Source: an uncultured Clostridia bacterium (lineage in GTDB: Bacteria > Bacillota > Clostridia > Christensenellales > Aristaeellaceae). From it: DNA of 64,000 nt. This document shows positions 8,174 to 64,000 of this stretch, in pieces; the first letter of the stretch is position 1; each line of letters begins with the position of its first letter. Location of the stretch: assembly GCA_946413245.1 (NCBI GenBank), contig CAMKJS010000004.1, positions 1 through 64,000 on the forward strand. The letters are read 5' to 3'. The position numbers were made by a program, and so were the translations under genes. Below the pieces are notes generated by a model. It had not been told where the DNA came from. It searched no databases and worked only from the letters and a program-made list of their open reading frames with translations.

Positions 8174-10147
8174 ATGGAAAAGATCACCTCCGCGCAGCTG
8201 CGGGAAAAGTTTCAGCAATTCATGGAATCCAAGGGACATCACCGGATTCAGTCCGCTTCCGTCATTCCCGAGAATGACCCGACCGTGCTGTTCACAACCG
8301 CGGGCATGCATCCCCTGGTTCCCTATCTGATGGGAACGCCCCATCCCGCCGGCACCCGGCTGACCGACGTGCAGAAGTGCATCCGCACCGGCGATATCGA
8401 CGACGTGGGAGATCCCAGCCATCTGACCTTCTTCGAGATGCTGGGCAACTGGAGTCTGGGCGATTATTTTAAGGAAGAAATGATCCCCTGGAGCTGGGAG
8501 TTCCTCACCAGCCCCGAATATCTGGGCCTGCCGAAGGATAAGCTGGCCTTCACCGTCTTCGAGGGAGACGAGGACTGCCCCCGGGATCTGACCAGCTACA
8601 ACCTGTGGCGTTCCTGCGGCGTGGCGGAAGACCACCTGTTCTTCCTGCCCAAGGCCAACAACTGGTGGGGCCCTGCCGGCATGACCGGTCCCTGCGGCAG
8701 CGACACTGAGATGTTCATCATCACGGACCGGCCTCCCTGCGGGCCGGACTGCTCTCCCGCCTGCTCCTGCGGCCGCTATCTGGAAATCTGGAACGACGTG
8801 TTCATGGAATACAACAAAACCGCCGAGGGCAAATACGAGCCCCTGGCGAAGAAGAACGTGGACACCGGCATGGGCCTGGAGCGCACGGTCTGCGTGCTGA
8901 ACGGCAAGCAGAGCGTCTATGAGATCGACGCCTTCGCCGGCATTCTGGACCGGATCAGCGAGCTGAGCGGCAAGACCTACGGCGCCGACGAGGCGGACAC
9001 CCGGGCCTTCCGGATCATCGCGGATCATATGCGCACCTCCACCTTTATCCTCGGTGACGACCGCGGCGTCAGCCCCTCCAACACGGACCAGGGCTACATC
9101 CTGCGCCGGCTGATCCGCCGCGCGGTGCGGTACGGCATGCAGCTGGGCATGGAGGAAGGCTTCACCGTGGAAATTGCCCGGGTGATCATCGACCAGTATC
9201 AGGACGTATATCCGGAGCTGGCACGCAACGCCGATTTCGTGCTGGAACAGCTGAAGCTGGAAGAGGCCCGTTTCGCCCGCACCCTGAAGCAGGGTGAAAA
9301 GGAATTCGACAAGGTCTATCAGAACGTCTGCCGCACCCGGACGCTGCTGGAAAGCATCCTCTCCGCGGAAGACGGGGTCGCTCTGGCTGCCGAGCTGGCG
9401 AAGACCAAGCAGCTTCGTCCCTCTCCGGATCTGATGCCCATCATCGAAGCGGCGAACGCCGGCGACGCGGCCGCCCTGAAGGCAGCGGTGGAAACCCGGC
9501 TGGCTTCCCTCTCCGTGCTGGACGGCCGCAGCGCCTTCAAGCTCTATGACACCTACGGCTTCCCGATTGAAATGACCCGGGAGCTGGCGGCTGAAAAGGG
9601 CCTGACCATCGACGAGGCGGATTTCGCCGAGCGCTTTAAGAAGCATCAGGAGCTCTCCCACCAGGGAGCGGATCAGAAGTTCAAGGGCGGCCTCGCGGAC
9701 CACAGCGAGCAGACAGCCCGGCTCCACACCGCCACGCACCTGCTCCACGCCGCCCTGCGGAAGGTTCTGGGAGACGAAGTCGCCCAGAAGGGCTCCAACA
9801 TCACCGCGGAACGCCTGCGGTTCGACTTCAGCTTCGGCCGGAAGATGACCCCCGAAGAGCTGACCGAGGTGGAACGCCTGGTCAACGTAGCCATCGACGC
9901 CGCCGTGCCGGTGGTCTGCGAGGAAATGACCGTGCCGGAAGCCAAGGCCAAGGGCGCCATCGGCCTGTTCGAGAGCAAGTACGGCGAGCGGGTCCGCACC
10001 TATAAGATGGGTGACTATTCCTTCGAAATCTGCGGCGGCCCCCACGCCGAAAACACCGGTGATCTGGGGTCCTTCAAAATCCAGAAGGAAGAATCCTCCT
10101 CCGCCGGCGTCCGCCGCATCAAGGCCACCATCGCTCCGAAGGGCTGA
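8174..10147 (+). CDS. alaS: Alanine--tRNA ligase, short form lacking the C-terminal DHHA1 domain
   Basis: This enzyme charges tRNA-Ala. The 657 residues cover the class II catalytic domain (TTAGMHPLVPYLMG, FFEMLGNWSLGDYF), the tRNA-recognition region and the editing domain with its zinc site (HTATHLLHAAL and CGGPHAENTG). It then ends with IKATIAPKG, whereas most bacterial AlaRS are about 870 residues and continue into a coiled coil and the C-Ala/DHHA1 domain. An additional cysteine cluster, CGPDCSPACSCGRYLEIWN, lies in the catalytic part. The stop codon is followed by non-coding repeats, so no frameshifted remainder is visible. A second, full-length alaS elsewhere cannot be excluded. Confidence 0.9.
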   Translation: MEKITSAQLREKFQQFMESKGHHRIQSASVIPENDPTVLFTTAGMHPLVPYLMGTPHPAGTRLTDVQKCIRTGDIDDVGDPSHLTFFEMLGNWSLGDYFKEEMIPWSWEFLTSPEYLGLPKDKLAFTVFEGDEDCPRDLTSYNLWRSCGVAEDHLFFLPKANNWWGPAGMTGPCGSDTEMFIITDRPPCGPDCSPACSCGRYLEIWNDVFMEYNKTAEGKYEPLAKKNVDTGMGLERTVCVLNGKQSVYEIDAFAGILDRISELSGKTYGADEADTRAFRIIADHMRTSTFILGDDRGVSPSNTDQGYILRRLIRRAVRYGMQLGMEEGFTVEIARVIIDQYQDVYPELARNADFVLEQLKLEEARFARTLKQGEKEFDKVYQNVCRTRTLLESILSAEDGVALAAELAKTKQLRPSPDLMPIIEAANAGDAAALKAAVETRLASLSVLDGRSAFKLYDTYGFPIEMTRELAAEKGLTIDEADFAERFKKHQELSHQGADQKFKGGLADHSEQTARLHTATHLLHAALRKVLGDEVAQKGSNITAERLRFDFSFGRKMTPEELTEVERLVNVAIDAAVPVVCEEMTVPEAKAKGAIGLFESKYGERVRTYKMGDYSFEICGGPHAENTGDLGSFKIQKEESSSAGVRRIKATIAPKG

Positions 10148-51319: not shown

Positions 51320-52861
51320 TCAATCGCTGGCGTTTGCGGTTTCCTTGTTCGGGAGCCGCAGCATCAGGGTTTTTTCCTCTTCATCCCATTCCGCGGTGCC
51401 GTTCAGCGCCCGGGCCAGGAAGTCTGCGCTGATGAAGTGCCCCTCTTCCACAAATCCGAATTCCGCCGCGTCCATCGGGATCTCCACGCCGCCTACAGTA
51501 GCGGACAGGCCGGCATCCTCATTGTAGATGGCCAGTACATATCCGTTCGCCTCCAGCACCAGCGCGCTGCCGTTATCCGTCAGCACCCAGCTGTCCAGGC
51601 AGGCTGCCAGATCGTCCAGGCTGACGCGGATCAGTCCGCCCTTCCGCTGCAGCCGCGGAGTCCGGGATACCGGGACGCCGTCGTCCAGGGCTATCCATTC
51701 CATCGGCGCGCCGTCGTCATTCATTGCGACGCTGCCCTCTATATCCTCCACTTCCTCGTCCAGATCCACCTCTTCCTCAATCTCAGCGGGTTCCGGAGCG
51801 GGGGCTTCTGTCGGTGCTTCCGTGGGCGCCTCAGTCGGTGCTTCTGTCGGTGCTTCCGTAGGTTCCTCGGTTGGTACTTCTGTCGGTGCTTCCGTAGGTT
51901 CCTCCGTCGGGACCTCTGTCGGGGCTTCTGTCGGGGCTTCCGTGGGTTCCTCGGTTGGTACCTCTGTCGGGGCTTCCGTGGGCGCCTCAGTCGGGGCTTC
52001 TGTCGGGGCTTCCGTGGGTTCCTCGGTTGGTACTTCTGTCGGTGCTTCCGTGGGTTCCTCAGTCGGAGCTTCTGTCGGGGCATCCGTGGGTTCCTCCGTC
52101 GGGACCTCTGTCGGTACCTCTGTCGGAGCTTCCGTAGGCTCCTCTGTCGGTGCTTCCGTGGGTTCCTCCGTCGGGACCTCTGTTGGTGCTTCCGTAGGCT
52201 CCTCTGTCGGGGCTTCCGTCGGCGCTTCCGTGGGTTCCTCAGTCGGGGCCTCTGTCGGTGCTTCCGTAGGCTCCTCCGTCGGTGCTTCCGTGGGTGCCAC
52301 CGTCGGTCCTTCCTTCAGAGCTTCTGTCGGAACTTCGGTCGGAGCCTCCGTGGGAGCTTCCGGTGCCTTCGTAGCCGTGCCCGGATAAGGCATCACGTCC
52401 GGATTCTCATACAGATAAGTCTGGGTCGCGCGGCCGGCAACCCCGTCCTGTGTCAGGCCGTTATAGTACTGGAACCGGCGCACGGCGTTGGCCGTCTGCC
52501 GGCCGTAGGCTCCGTCCGCGGCGCCTTCGGGCAGATATCCGAGCTCAATCAGCTTTTCCTGCAGCTTCCGGACGTCAGCGCCTTTTGCCCCGACGGCCAG
52601 GTTATGATACGCCCGGTTCGGAGTAATAGCCGGCACCGGCGCGGGCGTCACGACCTCCGTAGGTTCAGGGGTCGCTCCCGCCTCTGCCCCGGGCGTCGTT
52701 TCCGGCCCGGGTGTCACCCCCGGAATCGTTTCAGCGGATACAACTGCCTGCGGAGGCGCTGAAGGCGTCGGATCCGGCGTCACCGCCGGGGTGGACGTGC
52801 TCTGCACGGCAATGGCCAGCGTGGTCGCCATATAAATCAGCAGGGTCTTTAAAAAGTCCAT
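51320..52861 (-). CDS. Peptidoglycan-binding protein with about fifty PTE[AEV] repeats and a CuAO-N-like domain
   Basis: A 513-residue exported protein. It begins with a hydrophobic segment (LKTLLIYMATTLAIAV), then a Pro/Thr linker, a peptidoglycan-binding domain 1 (about 84-150: GADVRKLQEKLIELGYLPEG, RRFQYYNGLTQDG), about 200 residues of four-residue PTEx units, a short acidic segment and a C-terminal domain like the copper amine oxidase N-terminal/stalk fold (GHFISADFLARALNGTAEWD). The spacer should hold the two domains apart across the wall. Repeat number may vary between strains. GGAGGGG precedes the ATG; HPr-like gene follows. Confidence 0.82.
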   Translation of the reverse strand: MDFLKTLLIYMATTLAIAVQSTSTPAVTPDPTPSAPPQAVVSAETIPGVTPGPETTPGAEAGATPEPTEVVTPAPVPAITPNRAYHNLAVGAKGADVRKLQEKLIELGYLPEGAADGAYGRQTANAVRRFQYYNGLTQDGVAGRATQTYLYENPDVMPYPGTATKAPEAPTEAPTEVPTEALKEGPTVAPTEAPTEEPTEAPTEAPTEEPTEAPTEAPTEEPTEAPTEVPTEEPTEAPTEEPTEAPTEVPTEVPTEEPTDAPTEAPTEEPTEAPTEVPTEEPTEAPTEAPTEAPTEAPTEVPTEEPTEAPTEAPTEVPTEEPTEAPTEVPTEEPTEAPTEAPTEAPTEAPTEAPAPEPAEIEEEVDLDEEVEDIEGSVAMNDDGAPMEWIALDDGVPVSRTPRLQRKGGLIRVSLDDLAACLDSWVLTDNGSALVLEANGYVLAIYNEDAGLSATVGGVEIPMDAAEFGFVEEGHFISADFLARALNGTAEWDEEEKTLMLRLPNKETANASD

Positions 52862-58306: not shown

Positions 58307-58711
58307 TTACAGGGGATAACGGGTCAGATAGATCACAAGGGTGATCCCGGCAGCGGCCAGAAACGCCAGACCGGTGAACAGCGTTCCGCGCGGCTTTTTT
58401 GCGCCGCGCTTCTGCCGGGCCGCGACATAATCAAAATAGGTTTTCGGCATGGCGGCCCTTTTTTCTTCGCTGAAAAACAGTCCGAGGACTTTGCGGACCG
58501 GAAACGCGATCCCGTCAAAAGCGCCCTGGTCGGACACCAGGGAAAGAAGGCCCGTGCCGGTCAGCAGAATGCCGGGAACCGTAAAGGCGTCGCAGAGTTT
58601 TTTCCAGAACGCTTCCGTCCCGGCCTCCGGAACGCCGCCGATCATCAGGATCGCCAAGGTCAGAACCAGCCCGACGATCACCGGCAGCACGATCCTTCTT
58701 CCTCCGCCCAT
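58307..58711 (-). CDS. DUF3899-like membrane protein
   Basis: A 134-residue protein with three predicted spans (about 9-26, 44-62 and 112-130) and a central conserved-looking part, LSLVSDQGAFDGIAFPVRKVLGLF, recalling DUF3899 proteins. The function is unknown. The start overlaps the OppF stop by one base (TAATG), so it is translated with the Opp operon and may assist it. Confidence 0.7.
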   Translation of the reverse strand: MGGGRRIVLPVIVGLVLTLAILMIGGVPEAGTEAFWKKLCDAFTVPGILLTGTGLLSLVSDQGAFDGIAFPVRKVLGLFFSEEKRAAMPKTYFDYVAARQKRGAKKPRGTLFTGLAFLAAAGITLVIYLTRYPL

Positions 58712-61188
58712 TAACGGCCCAGCTCCTTCAGATACGCCTCAAACTCCGCGTCGTTGCAATGCACATAATGCCCGGGTGAAATCTCACGGAGGGACGGCTT
58801 ATCCGTCGAATAATCATGCGCCCTGGCCGGTACATATTCCACCCGCTTCCGGTTCTTTTCATAATGCGGATCCGGATAGGGAATCGCGCTCAGCAGCGAT
58901 TTGGTATACGGATGCAGGGGATGGGCAAACAGCTCGTCCGAAGTCGCCAGCTCCACAATGTGGCCGTAGTACATTACGGCGATCCGGTCGGAGAAATACT
59001 TCACCACGCTCAGGTTATGCGCGATGAACATAATCGTCAGGCCCATCCGTTCCCGCAGATCGTTCAGCAGATTGATCACCTGCGCCTGAATGGAAACGTC
59101 CAGCGCGGAAATCGGTTCGTCCGCGATAATCAGATCAGGTTCCATGATAATCGCCCGGGCGATGCCGATGCGCTGCCGCTGTCCGCCGGAAAACTCATGG
59201 GGATACCGGTCCGCGTGCTCCCGCACCAGGCCGACCAGCTCCAGCATTTCATAGACCTTCTGGTTGATGTATTCCTTGTCCTTTACGCCGCGGATAATCA
59301 GGCCCTCCGCGATGATTTCGCGCACGGTCATCCGCGGATTGATGGACGCGATGGGATCCTGGAAGATCATCTGCATCCGGGTCATCACGTTGTCCTTCGC
59401 GGCGACCTTCCGTTCCGTTTCGTACCGGCGGGTTCTCGCTTCCGCCGCTTCTCCGGTCAGCGTCTGCATGTCCGCCTCATAGGCTTCCTTCAGCTCCTTC
59501 AGCCGCTTCTCCCGGTAAAACTGCACACACTTGCTTTTTTCAACGAAACTGGCTAACGCCTTATCCTCCGCCTCCCGGAGCTTTTCCTTCAGCTCCTTTT
59601 TCAGCCGGCGCATTTCCTTGCGGTCCCCGGCCTTCCGGGCGGCGTTGATAGCCTCCTGCGCGTTCATCCGCAGCTGCGCCTTCAGCACGGGAAGGCCTTT
59701 CTGTGTGGAGGAAATCTTCAGCCCATCGAAATAAACGTCTCCCTCCGTCGGGTCATACAGGTTGATAATCGTACGTCCGGTGGTTGTCTTTCCGCATCCG
59801 CTTTCTCCCACCAGGCCGAACACTTCACCCTTTTTGATGAAAAAGCTGATGTCGTCCACCGCTTTTGTCACGCCGGCGCCGCTCATGAAATACTGCTTCA
59901 GGTGTTCCACCCGAAGAAGCACGTCCGGATCCTCCTGGATACCGGCCTTCAACCGCCTGGACAGGAGATAGCGGGTCAGCAGCCACCGCATCAGGTGAGA
60001 AAGCAGGATCAGGGCAATGCCGGCCAGCAGCATCCGTACCCACAGGGAAACAACTTTCCAGAAATCACCTGCAGGCGGGATATCCTTCCGGTTGTCCGCC
60101 TCGGCGATAATCTGAGCCAGATAACTGTTTTCCCATTTCCGGAGGGCCGGAAGCAGATTCACGGTTTTCGCCGTGGCATTGACAGCTTCTCCCTCCGCGC
60201 GTTCCTCAAACACGGCTGTAAATTCACCTTCGGAAGCCGCCAGTGTACGGATTTTGTCCGCTACCGCGCCGTAGCTGCCGTCAAAATTCGCTCCGGGGCT
60301 CAGTAAATCTTTCAGCCCGATCGCCAGCAGGGTCGCCGTGCTTTCCCCGCCCAGATCGTCATTCGGATAGCGGGTCTTCAGTGTTTCCGCAGCCTGCTCC
60401 AGAAAAGCGAGGAAATCGGCCGTCTCCGCCTGCTCCCCGTACAGTGCGCTCAGCGCGCCGGAGAAGCTCTCCGCGCTTTCGGTTTTTTCCTCGTTCCGCA
60501 CCGCTTCCAGCGCCTGTTGATACGCTTCCGGTGTGAACGATTCCTGCATCCAGGCCTTTACATCCTTCACAGCCGTTCCCTGGGCGGCGGTTTCCTCCAG
60601 CATGCGGCGGACCGCGCTCATAAACTCATACCAGGTTCCCGCGTTCTCGCCCTGTTCCCCGGCGAACGCCGCGTAATACTCCTGAAAATAGGGCTCCAGG
60701 GACGCGGCTTTCAGGGATGCCAGCTTCCCTTTTTTGGGGGTGGCTGCCAGCCCGTCGACGTATTCAAAGATTTCCCGCAGTTCCCGGTTCTCCTGCTGCT
60801 CGTCCATAGCGCTGAATCCCAGAGATTCCGGGCTCTGCTGCGCCAGCCAGGCCGCAGCGCTCCGCTTCACTTCCGCTTCCTGCCCGCGGACAGCGTCCTC
60901 CATTCTGTTGAACCAGCCGGCAAAGTCGGAAGAGATGGCGGCGATGCGCACGTCATCCTTCTCCCCGCGGTTTTTCGCGGAGCGGCTCAGAGCGCGGAAG
61001 AAATACCGGTCAAAGGAGAAGAAATCCGTCCATTTTCCCTCCGCGCCGAAACGGGTCATTCCCTGATCCAGCGTTTCCCGGGCGGCACCCGTGTTAATCA
61101 GGGCGTACAGCCCCAGCACCAGCGCCACCAGAACCAGGACGATCCCGACAGCTTTCACGATATATGAGGCGCGATGAATCGCTTTCAT
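58711..61188 (-). CDS. oppF: Oligopeptide ABC transporter ATPase OppF with membrane/extracytoplasmic domain and coiled-coil insertion
   Basis: An 825-residue OppF-type ATPase; normal size is about 320. Residues 1-31 contain a membrane span, 32-380 form a helical extracytoplasmic domain of unknown type, 381-403 a second span, and the ABC domain starts near 424. Its motifs are complete: Walker A GESGCGKTTT (461), Q-loop FQDP (609), signature FSGGQRQR (666), Walker B LIIADEP (686), H-loop FIAHN (721). A charged coiled coil (about 494-602) is inserted between Walker A and the Q-loop. The frame is uninterrupted and the codon use uniform. It overlaps oppD (ATGA). Peptide import is the likely role; the purpose of the additions is unknown. 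Confidence 0.9.
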   Translation of the reverse strand: MKAIHRASYIVKAVGIVLVLVALVLGLYALINTGAARETLDQGMTRFGAEGKWTDFFSFDRYFFRALSRSAKNRGEKDDVRIAAISSDFAGWFNRMEDAVRGQEAEVKRSAAAWLAQQSPESLGFSAMDEQQENRELREIFEYVDGLAATPKKGKLASLKAASLEPYFQEYYAAFAGEQGENAGTWYEFMSAVRRMLEETAAQGTAVKDVKAWMQESFTPEAYQQALEAVRNEEKTESAESFSGALSALYGEQAETADFLAFLEQAAETLKTRYPNDDLGGESTATLLAIGLKDLLSPGANFDGSYGAVADKIRTLAASEGEFTAVFEERAEGEAVNATAKTVNLLPALRKWENSYLAQIIAEADNRKDIPPAGDFWKVVSLWVRMLLAGIALILLSHLMRWLLTRYLLSRRLKAGIQEDPDVLLRVEHLKQYFMSGAGVTKAVDDISFFIKKGEVFGLVGESGCGKTTTGRTIINLYDPTEGDVYFDGLKISSTQKGLPVLKAQLRMNAQEAINAARKAGDRKEMRRLKKELKEKLREAEDKALASFVEKSKCVQFYREKRLKELKEAYEADMQTLTGEAAEARTRRYETERKVAAKDNVMTRMQMIFQDPIASINPRMTVREIIAEGLIIRGVKDKEYINQKVYEMLELVGLVREHADRYPHEFSGGQRQRIGIARAIIMEPDLIIADEPISALDVSIQAQVINLLNDLRERMGLTIMFIAHNLSVVKYFSDRIAVMYYGHIVELATSDELFAHPLHPYTKSLLSAIPYPDPHYEKNRKRVEYVPARAHDYSTDKPSLREISPGHYVHCNDAEFEAYLKELGR

Positions 61189-63341
61189 GCTTCAGCGCCT
61201 CCTTTCTCCGCGGCTTCCATTTCCCGTTTCTTCATGCGTTTGATCCGTTCCGTCACGCTGACCGGCGGATCCACCTTCGGCGCGTCCGGATGCAGCAGCC
61301 AGGTCGCTGCCTGATGCGTCTCACTGATCCGGAACATGGGCGGCTGCTCTTCCAGGTCAATTTCCATAGCATAACGGTTCCGCGCGGCAAAGGCGTCTCC
61401 CTTCGGCGGCAGAATCATGTTCGGAGGCGTACCGGGAATGGCTTCCAGCTTCTCCCTGGTTTCCAGATCGGGCATGGACGCCAGCAGTGCCCAGGTATAC
61501 GGATGCCGCGGATCATAGAATACGTCGTCCGCCGTGCCGTATTCCACAATTTTACCGGCGTACATGATCGCAATCCGGTCCGCCATGTTGGCTACGACGC
61601 CCAGATCATGGGTAATAAAGATGACGGAGAGTTTCCGCTCTTTCTTCAGCCGGTTGATCAGCTCCAGAATCTGCGCCTGAATCGTCACGTCCAGGGCGGT
61701 TGTGGGCTCGTCGCAGATCAGAATGTCCGGATTGGCGGACAGGGCAATCGCGATAACGATACGCTGCCGCATGCCGCCGGAGAATTCAAAGGGATACTGA
61801 TGATACCGCCGCTGCGGCTCCGGAATGCCGACTTCCTTCATCAGCTCGATGGCCCGGTGCTTCGCCATGCTCTTGCTCAGCTTGTAGGCATATTCGGAGG
61901 AGCGGTCCTTCAGATAGTCGATCAGCCGCACAGCCTGTGCACCGCGATCCGCAGTCCCGGTCTCCTGCCGGCTGAAATGATCGATCATCGCCGTCATGGT
62001 ATTGGTCAGATTCGCCCGGGTTTTCTCCAGATCCACCAGATTCAGCGGCACCACGGAAGGCACAAATTTCCCCTTCGCCGTCTCCCGGTTAAACTTTTCG
62101 GTTTCCCGGTCAAAGCGTCTCTGCTCCTTCGGATTATGCTTCAGGCCGTAAAAATAACGGTTGATGTAGGATTGCATGCTGCTGCGGAACACATACGCCC
62201 GGTTGTCCTTATCCAGGCTCAGGCGGTCGATCGCCTGTTCCACAGCATCGGCTGCGCGCTTCGCCGCGGCCCGGCATTTTCCGGCTTCCAGCTTTTCCGC
62301 GGTAAACACAGGCAGCTCTTCCCGGAGCACGTCGACAGCCCGGGCCCGGGTCTTTTCCGCTTCCGCCGCGGAATGGGCAAGCGCTTTTTCCGTGTCCGCC
62401 AGGAAGTCGCGCATGAATCCGTCGTTCAGCGCCGTCAGGCCCCGCGCATTGATATCTTCCACGCTTTCCTTCGCAGGATCGGGGGTTTCTCCGTGGGAAA
62501 CCAGATACCCGATCCGGAAAAAGTTGGGCTGCGGTTTCTCCGGGTCCGTCGCTTCATGCAACCGGTTCTTCAGGTGCTCCATCACGGCGCGGAGCTCCGG
62601 CTCCTTTTCCATCGTAAACCGTTTACCCATGGACGCGATTTCTTCCGTAACCGCGTTAAAATCAGCGTCCTCCTTGCTGATCAGCCAGGGATCCTGGACC
62701 GCAGGCGCCAGCCGTGCCATCCGCGTGCAGATCTCACGGACGCTCTTCTCATTCTTCTCCAGCAGAGCCAGCTCCGCTTCCTCCAGGGCATCCAGCATTC
62801 CGATAGCGCTTTCCTTCGCGTTCTGCCAGGCATTCTCCAGCTTCACGCCGGCGGAAGTAAACGCGTCCAGTTCCCTGCACCGGGCGCCAGCATTCCCCAC
62901 GCCTGCGGCCGTCATATTCTTTTCCAGCTCGCCCAGCATCTGGTTGAAGCGCTTCCGGCCGTCCTCCCGGCGCTCCTTGTTGTTCAGCAGCATGGCCTCG
63001 GTCAGCTGCTTCCCGATACGCATGATCGGGTTCAGGGCGCTCAGCGGATCCTGGAATACCATGCTCAGTTTATGGCCGCGCAGCGTATGGAAATCCTCTT
63101 CGGGAATTTTCAGCAGATCTTTCCCGTCATAGATGATCTCGCCGTCCTCCACCATGGCGTTGCCGGCCAGAATGCCCATCACCGCACGGGTGGTGACTGA
63201 TTTTCCGCTGCCGCTCTCGCCCGCAATGGCCAGCGTCTCTCCTTCGTTCAGATCAAAGGATACATCCCGGACCGCGCGAACAGCACCGTTGTTGGTCCGG
63301 AAGGAAATCGTCAGATTCCTGACCTCCAGCTTCTTAGCCAT
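61185..63341 (-). CDS. oppD: Oligopeptide ABC transporter ATPase OppD with ~370-residue insertion
   Basis: A 718-residue OppD-type ATPase; normal size is about 330. Walker A GESGSGKSVT (41), Q-loop VFQDPLSALNP (95), then about 370 inserted residues (122-490), mostly charged helices with NFFRIGYLVSHGE near 273, before the signature FEFSGGMRQR (518), Walker B LICDEPTTALD (541) and H-loop FITHD (575). The insertion lies in the helical subdomain that touches the permeases. The C-terminal cysteine motif of OppD proteins (CxxRC type) is replaced by FAARNRYAM. It is one base downstream of oppC and overlaps oppF. Confidence 0.9.
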   Translation of the reverse strand: MAKKLEVRNLTISFRTNNGAVRAVRDVSFDLNEGETLAIAGESGSGKSVTTRAVMGILAGNAMVEDGEIIYDGKDLLKIPEEDFHTLRGHKLSMVFQDPLSALNPIMRIGKQLTEAMLLNNKERREDGRKRFNQMLGELEKNMTAAGVGNAGARCRELDAFTSAGVKLENAWQNAKESAIGMLDALEEAELALLEKNEKSVREICTRMARLAPAVQDPWLISKEDADFNAVTEEIASMGKRFTMEKEPELRAVMEHLKNRLHEATDPEKPQPNFFRIGYLVSHGETPDPAKESVEDINARGLTALNDGFMRDFLADTEKALAHSAAEAEKTRARAVDVLREELPVFTAEKLEAGKCRAAAKRAADAVEQAIDRLSLDKDNRAYVFRSSMQSYINRYFYGLKHNPKEQRRFDRETEKFNRETAKGKFVPSVVPLNLVDLEKTRANLTNTMTAMIDHFSRQETGTADRGAQAVRLIDYLKDRSSEYAYKLSKSMAKHRAIELMKEVGIPEPQRRYHQYPFEFSGGMRQRIVIAIALSANPDILICDEPTTALDVTIQAQILELINRLKKERKLSVIFITHDLGVVANMADRIAIMYAGKIVEYGTADDVFYDPRHPYTWALLASMPDLETREKLEAIPGTPPNMILPPKGDAFAARNRYAMEIDLEEQPPMFRISETHQAATWLLHPDAPKVDPPVSVTERIKRMKKREMEAAEKGGAEA

Positions 63342-63342
63342 C

Positions 63343-64000
63343 TCAGTCTTCCGCTCCTCTCAGGGAAGGATTGAACGCATCCCGCAAACCGTTCCCGAAC
63401 AGATTGAATGAAATCTCCAGGATGGAGATGAACAGCGCCGGGAAAAAGATGATATGCGGATAGGTGCTCAGATACCCCTGTCCGCCGGCCAGTAAGGTAC
63501 CGATCGAGGTCAGGGATGAGGTTTCCAGATTGATAATGTGCAGATAACTCAGCATGGATTCGGAGAAGATCACCCCTGGGATCGCAAGCACTGACCCGGT
63601 GATGATGGTGCCCAGGGAATTGGGATAAATGTGCTTGAAAATCAACCGTCGGTCGCTTGCGCCCAGGGTCCGTGCCGCCAGCACATACTCGTGGCCCTTG
63701 AAGCGGTAGAACTGCATCCGGACCCGGGCGGCCATGCCGACCCATCCTGTGAGCACATAGGCAAACAGCAGGCTGGGCAGCACGCCCACCTTCTGCGCCA
63801 GGTGCAGCTGGAACAGGGTAGCCACCACCATGAAGGGCACGTCATACAGCAAGTCCGAAATACGCTCCATCACCAGGTCCACCGCGCCGCCGTAGTATCC
63901 TTCGATGGCGCCGTAGATCCCGCCGATGAGGAAGTTGATGGCGGAAACAGAGATCGCCAGCAGAAAGCTCAGCCGCGCGCCGGCTGCCATGCAGGTCAGC
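63343..64000 (-). CDS. oppC: Oligopeptide ABC transporter permease OppC (5' part outside window)
   Basis: The visible C-terminal 219 codons contain five membrane spans and the permease coupling (EAA) motif region: EYVLAARTLGASDRRLIFKH followed by IYPNSL, then SYLHIINLETSSLTSIGTLL and SILEISFNLFGNGLRDAFNP. These are typical of OppC/DppC. The frame is open at the window end; the methionine at 63990 is internal to the family alignment rather than the true start. The upstream oppB and binding protein are presumably beyond the edge. Confidence 0.93.
   Translation of the reverse strand, partial: LTCMAAGARLSFLLAISVSAINFLIGGIYGAIEGYYGGAVDLVMERISDLLYDVPFMVVATLFQLHLAQKVGVLPSLLFAYVLTGWVGMAARVRMQFYRFKGHEYVLAARTLGASDRRLIFKHIYPNSLGTIITGSVLAIPGVIFSESMLSYLHIINLETSSLTSIGTLLAGGQGYLSTYPHIIFFPALFISILEISFNLFGNGLRDAFNPSLRGAED

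Follow-up and report, generated by a model that had tools for sequence, protein, structure and literature searches.

What kind of peptide importer carries several hundred extra residues in each of its two ATPases? This question is raised by the window, i.e. the whole stretch of DNA analyzed here: 64,000 nucleotides of contig CAMKJS010000004.1 (assembly GCA_946413245.1) from an uncultured Clostridia bacterium. Peptide importers are textbook machines and their ATPases are regarded as purely cytosolic. The window encodes an OppD-type and an OppF-type ATPase that are both greatly enlarged, the latter with its own predicted membrane spans. The analysis revealed that this pair belongs to a real, conserved variant of Opp importer, termed here class A (OppA-B-C-D-F and a DUF3899 membrane protein, with an enlarged ATPase pair). 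There is, in our estimation, about an even chance that it is a distinct peptide importer variant in which the inserts brace or regulate the interface between the nucleotide-binding domains (NBDs) and the permeases. The two genes and their extra regions are as follows (aa, amino acids; TM, transmembrane).

61185..63341, minus strand: OppD-type ATPase, 718 aa (reading frame; Pfam ABC_tran and oligo_HPY)
61881..62984, minus strand: OppD insert (about aa 120–487) between the Q-loop and the signature motif, predicted all-helical bundle (spacing, conservation, model)
58711..61188, minus strand: OppF-type ATPase, 825 aa, with predicted membrane spans (reading frame; Pfam ABC_tran and oligo_HPY)
61093..61158, minus strand: predicted TM span 1 of OppF (about aa 11–32; hydrophobicity, model)
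60055..61092, minus strand: predicted extracytoplasmic domain (ectodomain) of OppF (about aa 33–378), mostly helical in the model
59977..60042, minus strand: predicted TM span 2 of OppF (about aa 383–404; hydrophobicity, model)
59389..59700, minus strand: helical-hairpin insert of OppF (about aa 497–600) between Walker A and the Q-loop (spacing, model)

A script located all catalytic motifs in both proteins: in OppD, Walker A at aa 41, FQDP at 96, FSGGMRQR at 520, Walker B ILICDEPTTALD at 540 and the H-loop at 575; in OppF, Walker A at aa 461, FQDP at 609, FSGGQRQR at 666, LIIADEPISALD at 686 and the H-loop (FIAHNL) at 721. The distance from the Q-loop to SGG in OppD is 425 residues, compared to 58–60 in ordinary-size Opp ATPases, which gives approximately 365 additional residues. 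Similarly, Walker A and the Q-loop of OppF are separated by 148 residues, compared to 51–53 in ordinary-size OppFs of the same genus, i.e. approximately 95 extra residues (95–105 for the insert). The N-terminal addition of OppF comprises about 415 residues; the ca. 345 aa between its two predicted spans contain 58 D+E, 38 K+R and no cysteine, and basic residues lie at the predicted inner ends of the spans. Apart from small corrections, these values agree with the original prediction, which had estimated about 370, 105 and 400 residues, respectively, with an N-terminal part of two spans around a domain, and had described the motifs as intact and the two genes as overlapping; the overlap is 4 nt.

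The interval singled out in that prediction does contain the ATPase pair, but the operon continues on both sides of it. In the window genome (G000) the gene order is OppA (854 aa), OppB (320 aa), OppC (514 aa), OppD, OppF and DUF3899 (134 aa). Two further genes of this operon lie at least partly within the window.

63343..64000, minus strand: OppC permease, cut at the window end (complete: 514 aa, G000:C4 63343-64887)
58307..58711, minus strand: DUF3899 protein (PF13038), a small membrane protein normally encoded sixth in the operon (Pfam)

Four of the five classic Opp subunits are enlarged: OppA (usual size about 540 aa), OppC, in which ca. 230 residues separate spans 1 and 2, OppD and OppF. 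The permeases match BPD_transp_1 and OppC_N, and OppA matches SBP_bac_5 (Pfam). The identity of class A as an Opp-type system is well supported, since the operon combines features expected of Opp/Dpp systems: (i) Walker A, Q-loop, signature, Walker B and H-loop in both ATPases, (ii) the oligo_HPY C-terminal region in both (Pfam) and (iii) an SBP_bac_5 binding protein with two BPD_transp_1 permeases (genes past the window, G000:C4).

The start codon of the DUF3899 gene overlaps the OppF stop codon (TAATG). The window protein scored 32.4 bits against PF13038 (gathering cut-off 23.4), and Pfam confirmed this identity in all three genes scanned (window, L090 and L123). PF13038 exceeded its cut-off in 14 of 61 relatives, among them nine class A genomes, and in none of 14 control genomes; in all nine class A genomes the gene directly follows OppF. 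A literature search by the name DUF3899 gave no match. Further DUF3899 matches over the cut-off, in G012, G007, G006, G001 and G010, lie approximately 1 kb from OppD-type genes (open frames of 359–398 aa) on the opposite strand.

The distribution of the architecture was examined in loci retrieved with the OppD insert. The first set comprised the best 80 of 518 confirmed stretches; chosen as best matches, these loci favor the clade of the window, and the insert is present in each by construction. A full-length OppD insert was confirmed by script in 79 of them (the exception being L161), with a Q-to-SGG spacing of 396–454 (median 432); in G021, which lies outside this set, it is shorter (331). 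OppF was obtained in 73 loci (72 complete and one, L120, cut), six others lying near contig ends. Complete OppC proteins of 480–560 aa were found in 69 loci, while the other ten were cut by contig ends, not found at a contig start or split in two frames (L102); there was no complete OppC of ordinary size among the loci of this set. A small multi-span gene directly follows OppF in 67 loci; in six others with OppF (L111, L120, L121, L125, L128 and L156) it was not found by the rule applied.

A second set of 20 loci was selected for diversity (the ten lowest-scoring genomes of the order, four from outside the order and six others; L204 is probably the same record as L123). All 20 contain the OppD insert and a long OppC (in L189 the OppD runs off the contig). 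OppF is present as a separate gene in 18; the contig of L189 ends before it, and OppD and OppF of L200 are fused. A DUF3899-like gene, detected with a profile built from first-set genes, was found in all except L189 and L201. Several individual loci, in this set and outside it, showed additional peculiarities: the class A OppD and OppF of L200 form one frame of 1233 aa (L200:6153-9854); the G036 OppF contains an in-frame stop in the signature region (L042, about 8928-8930), a sequencing error or a pseudogene; and the OppDs of L156 and L164 carry ca. 150 extra C-terminal residues, with oligo_HPY as the only Pfam match over cut-off.

Screening of genome samples with the OppD insert profile gave matches in 60 of 396 genomes of the order (including that of the window), in five of 291 in the class sample (the window genome plus four genomes outside the order, of which one matched weakly, E 3.8e-17) and in one of 398 in the phylum sample, the window genome itself. 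By record label, the named matches of the scan behind the first set come from rumen, gut and other metagenome-assembled genomes (MAGs) named as Clostridia, Christensenella, Oscillospiraceae, Lachnospiraceae and others, although such labels may be loose (L137 reads Gastranaerophilales). An artefact of assembly or fusion in a single MAG would find support in the draft state of the window genome (3.23 Mb in 134 contigs, 78.6% complete), but is a negligible prospect and was rejected: the architecture recurs in records that were assembled independently, in several studies and from several hosts, and a Shine-Dalgarno sequence (AAGGAGG) directly upstream of the OppF ATG supports the long start of this gene. 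The original prediction had itself raised a rare artefact as a possible objection.

It had also treated the additions to the two ATPases as linked, and had named their independent occurrence as an argument against itself. The link stands in the direction from the OppD insert to the Walker A–Q insert of OppF: beside the OppD insert, this region is enlarged in 72 of 72 complete OppFs of the first set (spacing 93–306) and in 18 of 18 separate OppFs of the second (78–296). The OppF ectodomain, by contrast, is independent of the OppD insert, since it occurs in two of the 396 evenly drawn genomes of the order compared to 60 for the insert, in none of the 20 diverse loci, and in one clade. Within the first set, the N-terminal extension is present in 27 of the 73 OppF genes read; both spans are seen in 26 of these (in L113 the called start falls inside the extension). 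Among the nine class A genomes of close relatives the ectodomain was found in G000, G011 and G021.

A tree of the OppD core (insert left out) comprised 85 rows, without L161 and three OppDs that break off shortly after the signature, but with the window, six relatives and two ordinary OppDs in addition. All 29 rows with the ectodomain fall into one clade, together with three rows without a readable OppF (support 100/99). The label table counts four ectodomain changes because these three rows sit inside the clade; when they are set aside, a single gain suffices. The ectodomain is a later addition limited to one clade. Comparison of the ectodomain with the OppC loop and with the OppD insert gave no support for kinship to either, and PDB sequences gave only matches at chance level (E at least 0.11) when searched with the OppF N-terminus, the OppC loop or the OppD insert.

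In L148, L156 and L164 two membrane spans are predicted at another position of OppF, inside the Walker A–Q insert, and likewise in L203; the grouping of the first three has a support of only 89/39. In the alignment of these three, the second span ends approximately 15 residues before FQDP, which places the OppF insert site near the membrane. The proposal that the inserts face the permeases is plausible, with this backing for its OppF part. The segment predicted outside in L148, L156, L164 and L203 is about 80–90 aa long. A DUF3592-like identity of this segment, considered for L148, L156 and L164, was not confirmed by Pfam and was not used.

Structure prediction by AlphaFold2 gave a model of OppD (alignment of 74 sequences) with a mean predicted local distance difference test score (pLDDT) of 81.7 and a predicted template modeling score (pTM) of 0.75. 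The insert is modeled as about eleven helices, with pLDDT mostly 85–96 and dips to 76–77. In the PDB, the OppD model aligns best with E. coli OppD (8z21_C), with a TM-score on the target of 0.83 and 686 columns for 327 target residues; the alignment skips the insert as a gap, which indicates that the NBD fold is kept. The OppF model (27 sequences, pLDDT 78.5) starts with a long helix, followed by an outside domain that is helical apart from one pair of strands and by the second span; between Walker A and the Q-loop, just before the Q-loop strand, a helical hairpin is inserted. This model matched E. coli OppF best (8z21_D, with a TM-score on the target of 0.71). Whole-model searches of this kind are dominated by the NBDs and say nothing on the folds of the inserts themselves. 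In NBDs of the MalK type and their relatives, the helical subdomain receives the coupling helix of the permease, and we take the helical subdomain that holds the OppD insert to be the one that does so here.

Substitution rates were compared in 12 close pairs, some with a shared member. The ratio of nonsynonymous to synonymous rates (dN/dS) is 0.08–0.34 for the OppD insert (11 of the 12 pairs gave a value), 0.09–0.34 for the OppF insert (11 pairs), 0.14–0.40 for the ectodomain (7 of 7 pairs) and 0.015–0.10 for the cores (11 pairs); these ratios are rough, as several pairs have a dS close to or above 1. The mean p-distance, calculated for those of the 72 rows in which OppC is complete and the OppF insert is below 140 aa, is 0.65 for the OppD insert, 0.70 for the OppF insert and 0.62 for the OppC loop, compared to 0.20, 0.22 and 0.35 for the respective cores. 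The inserts are under purifying selection, yet evolve several times faster than the cores; a few stretches within them are strongly conserved (e.g. PNFF and NPKE).

These observations may be combined as follows. With intact motifs and a conserved fold, both NBDs would hydrolyze ATP and drive the permeases as in an ordinary Opp system, presumably for the uptake of peptides. The OppD helical bundle and the OppF hairpin, which are the part shared across class A, most likely brace or regulate the NBD–permease interface. In the clade of the window, the TM-ectodomain-TM anchor would in addition tie the OppF NBD to the membrane and expose a helical domain on the outer side, next to the OppC loop and the enlarged OppA; there this domain would probably stabilize the docked binding protein or sense its loading. 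Several results weigh against a bracing or regulatory role. The OppF model is the less certain of the two (pTM 0.50). A second OppF of G000, with a large Walker A–Q insert, adjoins an ordinary OppD of 331 aa. The idea that a brace replaces lost C-terminal [4Fe-4S] domains (see below) loses weight, as the cysteines are also missing from the OppD and OppF of ordinary size in L049, from the same genus. The far higher rate of change in the inserts than in the cores means that there is no strong conservation of precise contacts. Finally, partial Mantel correlations (same rows as for the p-distances; relatedness ignored) are weak between the OppD and OppF inserts (r 0.10, 0 of 500 permutations as high), 0.045 between the OppD insert and the OppC loop (49 of 500) and -0.03 between the OppF insert and the OppC loop (387 of 500). 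The second OppF of G000 (519 aa, G000:C4 68983-70542, corresponding to L040:11984-13543) lies just past the window and has about 190 extra coiled-coil-like residues at the Walker A–Q site.

Other readings of the same data have to be weighed. As suggested in the original prediction, the outside domain of OppF could be a sensor, one that binds a ligand or loaded OppA and gates ATP hydrolysis directly via the TM helices: an NBD anchored in the membrane would provide a direct physical link from the outside to the motor, the basic inner flanks of the spans suit an outside domain, and OppFs of other loci (L148, L156, L164 and L203) have membrane spans at a different place. We nevertheless regard this as unlikely, since the ectodomain is present in only two of the 60 sampled genomes of the order with the OppD insert, and is therefore not needed for the basic machine; moreover, it matched no family in Pfam or NCBIfam and is the fastest-evolving part by dN in 7 of 7 pairs. 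The inserts could also be tolerated expansions, i.e. neutral or mildly useful elaborations accumulated by a ratchet while the pump works unchanged. Their divergence, several times that of the cores, would suit this, as would the different inserts seen in paralogous Opp ATPases of the same genus, of which one has no profile relation. Such an origin appears decidedly unlikely, however, given the narrow length range of the OppD insert in 79 of 79 loci, dN/dS values below 1 with conserved residues inside the insert, and the consistent co-occurrence with a long OppC and, usually, DUF3899.

The size, charge and helical character of the inserts, with their few strongly conserved stretches, would also suit a cytosolic platform on which the OppD bundle and the OppF hairpin recruit a partner, e.g. 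a peptidase processing peptides at the exit. This is improbable in our judgment: Pfam assigned no peptidase family to any of the six proteins that the operon encodes in the window genome, the insert sequences diverge fast, and the natural variants of OppF point its insert toward the membrane. The bracing or regulatory role is the preferred reading. Its tentative extension, which we think possible but would not expect to hold in full, is that the outside domain of OppF reads the state of OppA and sets ATP use by a mechanical or an allosteric route, that the inserts form an extra layer of the coupling interface, that DUF3899 is a sixth subunit, and that OppF gained membrane spans at least twice, at different sites.

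If the OppF ectodomain did read OppA, this would be a new coupling architecture with a membrane-spanning motor subunit. An enlarged binding protein, permease and two ATPases, together with an ATPase predicted to cross the membrane in one clade, offer natural experiments on the coupling of NBD motion to the binding protein, and the uncharacterized family DUF3899 gains a concrete setting, directly after the class A OppF. Among the literature matches listed (title and start of the abstract; most subscription papers outside coverage) there was no description of the class A variant. Elsewhere in the window, positions 51320-52861 (minus strand) encode a protein with a long APTEAPTEEPTE-type repeat tract.

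How does class A compare with known systems? By sequence, the best solved relatives of OppD are Opp/Dpp ATPases. The E. coli OppBCDF and DppABCDF complexes (8z21, 8z1v-8z1y) likewise place two different NBDs of the same fold on two permeases, but their ATPase chains are 327–336 residues long and lack large inserts. PMC12136057 describes in each E. coli Dpp ATPase a C-terminal four-cysteine [4Fe-4S] domain needed for assembly. These cysteines are not universal: E. coli Dpp and M. tuberculosis OppD have them, but according to the same paper M. tuberculosis DppD lacks them. In the matching region, class A OppD has no cysteine in 74 of 76 proteins and one in two; class A OppF has one in 69 of 72, two in two and none in one. 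With at most two cysteines there, class A lacks the four ligands, a feature which, not being universal, was not used as a bar to Opp/Dpp membership. The second opp operon of G000 (331-aa OppD, 519-aa OppF) keeps the four-cysteine motif.

Large Opp ATPases are also found in mycoplasmas, so that the size of 320–340 residues given for known OppD and OppF in the original prediction is too narrow: the NCBIfam models NF043079 (OppD) and NF043078 (OppF) have 561 and 649 positions. These were the best-scoring NCBIfam models for both window proteins, at 473.6 bits (cut-off 740) and 390.7 bits (cut-off 800), respectively, both under the cut-off. However, the mycoplasma-type OppD insert is located between Walker A and the Q-loop, and that of class A between the Q-loop and the signature; profile comparison gave no support for homology of the two (hhalign probability 0.2%), and homology of the OppF insert of the window with the mycoplasma-type OppD insert was not supported either. 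A search of the phylum with the mycoplasma OppF model at E 1e-130 returned no match anywhere and was uninformative.

A second class of enlarged OppD, with the insert at the Walker A–Q site, was observed in the genus of the window (L046:15231-17042, L053:8233-10134, L054:14287-16116, L055:8421-10328, L051:16282-18042 and L057:3916-5664). In the three members scanned (L057, L046 and L053), NF043079 matched as one full-length stretch with 687–729 bits (cut-off 740). The insert of this class shows no profile relation to the OppD insert of the window. A neighboring permease in L053 and L057 has approximately 280 residues between spans 1 and 2, and the OppFs of this second class (L057:5710-7002 and L051:18087-19379) carry a C-terminal hydrophobic hairpin of two predicted spans after the ATPase.

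The NBDs of M. tuberculosis OppABCD and DppABCD (8j5q, 8wd9) are related to class A in sequence. Unlike in class A, both NBDs reside in a single chain, and its 612 or 548 residues are too few to hold an insert of such length. Rad50/SMC-type ABC ATPases share with class A a helical extra part in the NBD. Viral SMC/Rad50 proteins matched weakly in the BFVD structure search (TM-scores of about 0.1–0.25, mostly with very large root-mean-square deviations). In contrast to the Rad50/SMC type, class A ATPases are encoded in a transporter operon, together with permeases and a binding protein.

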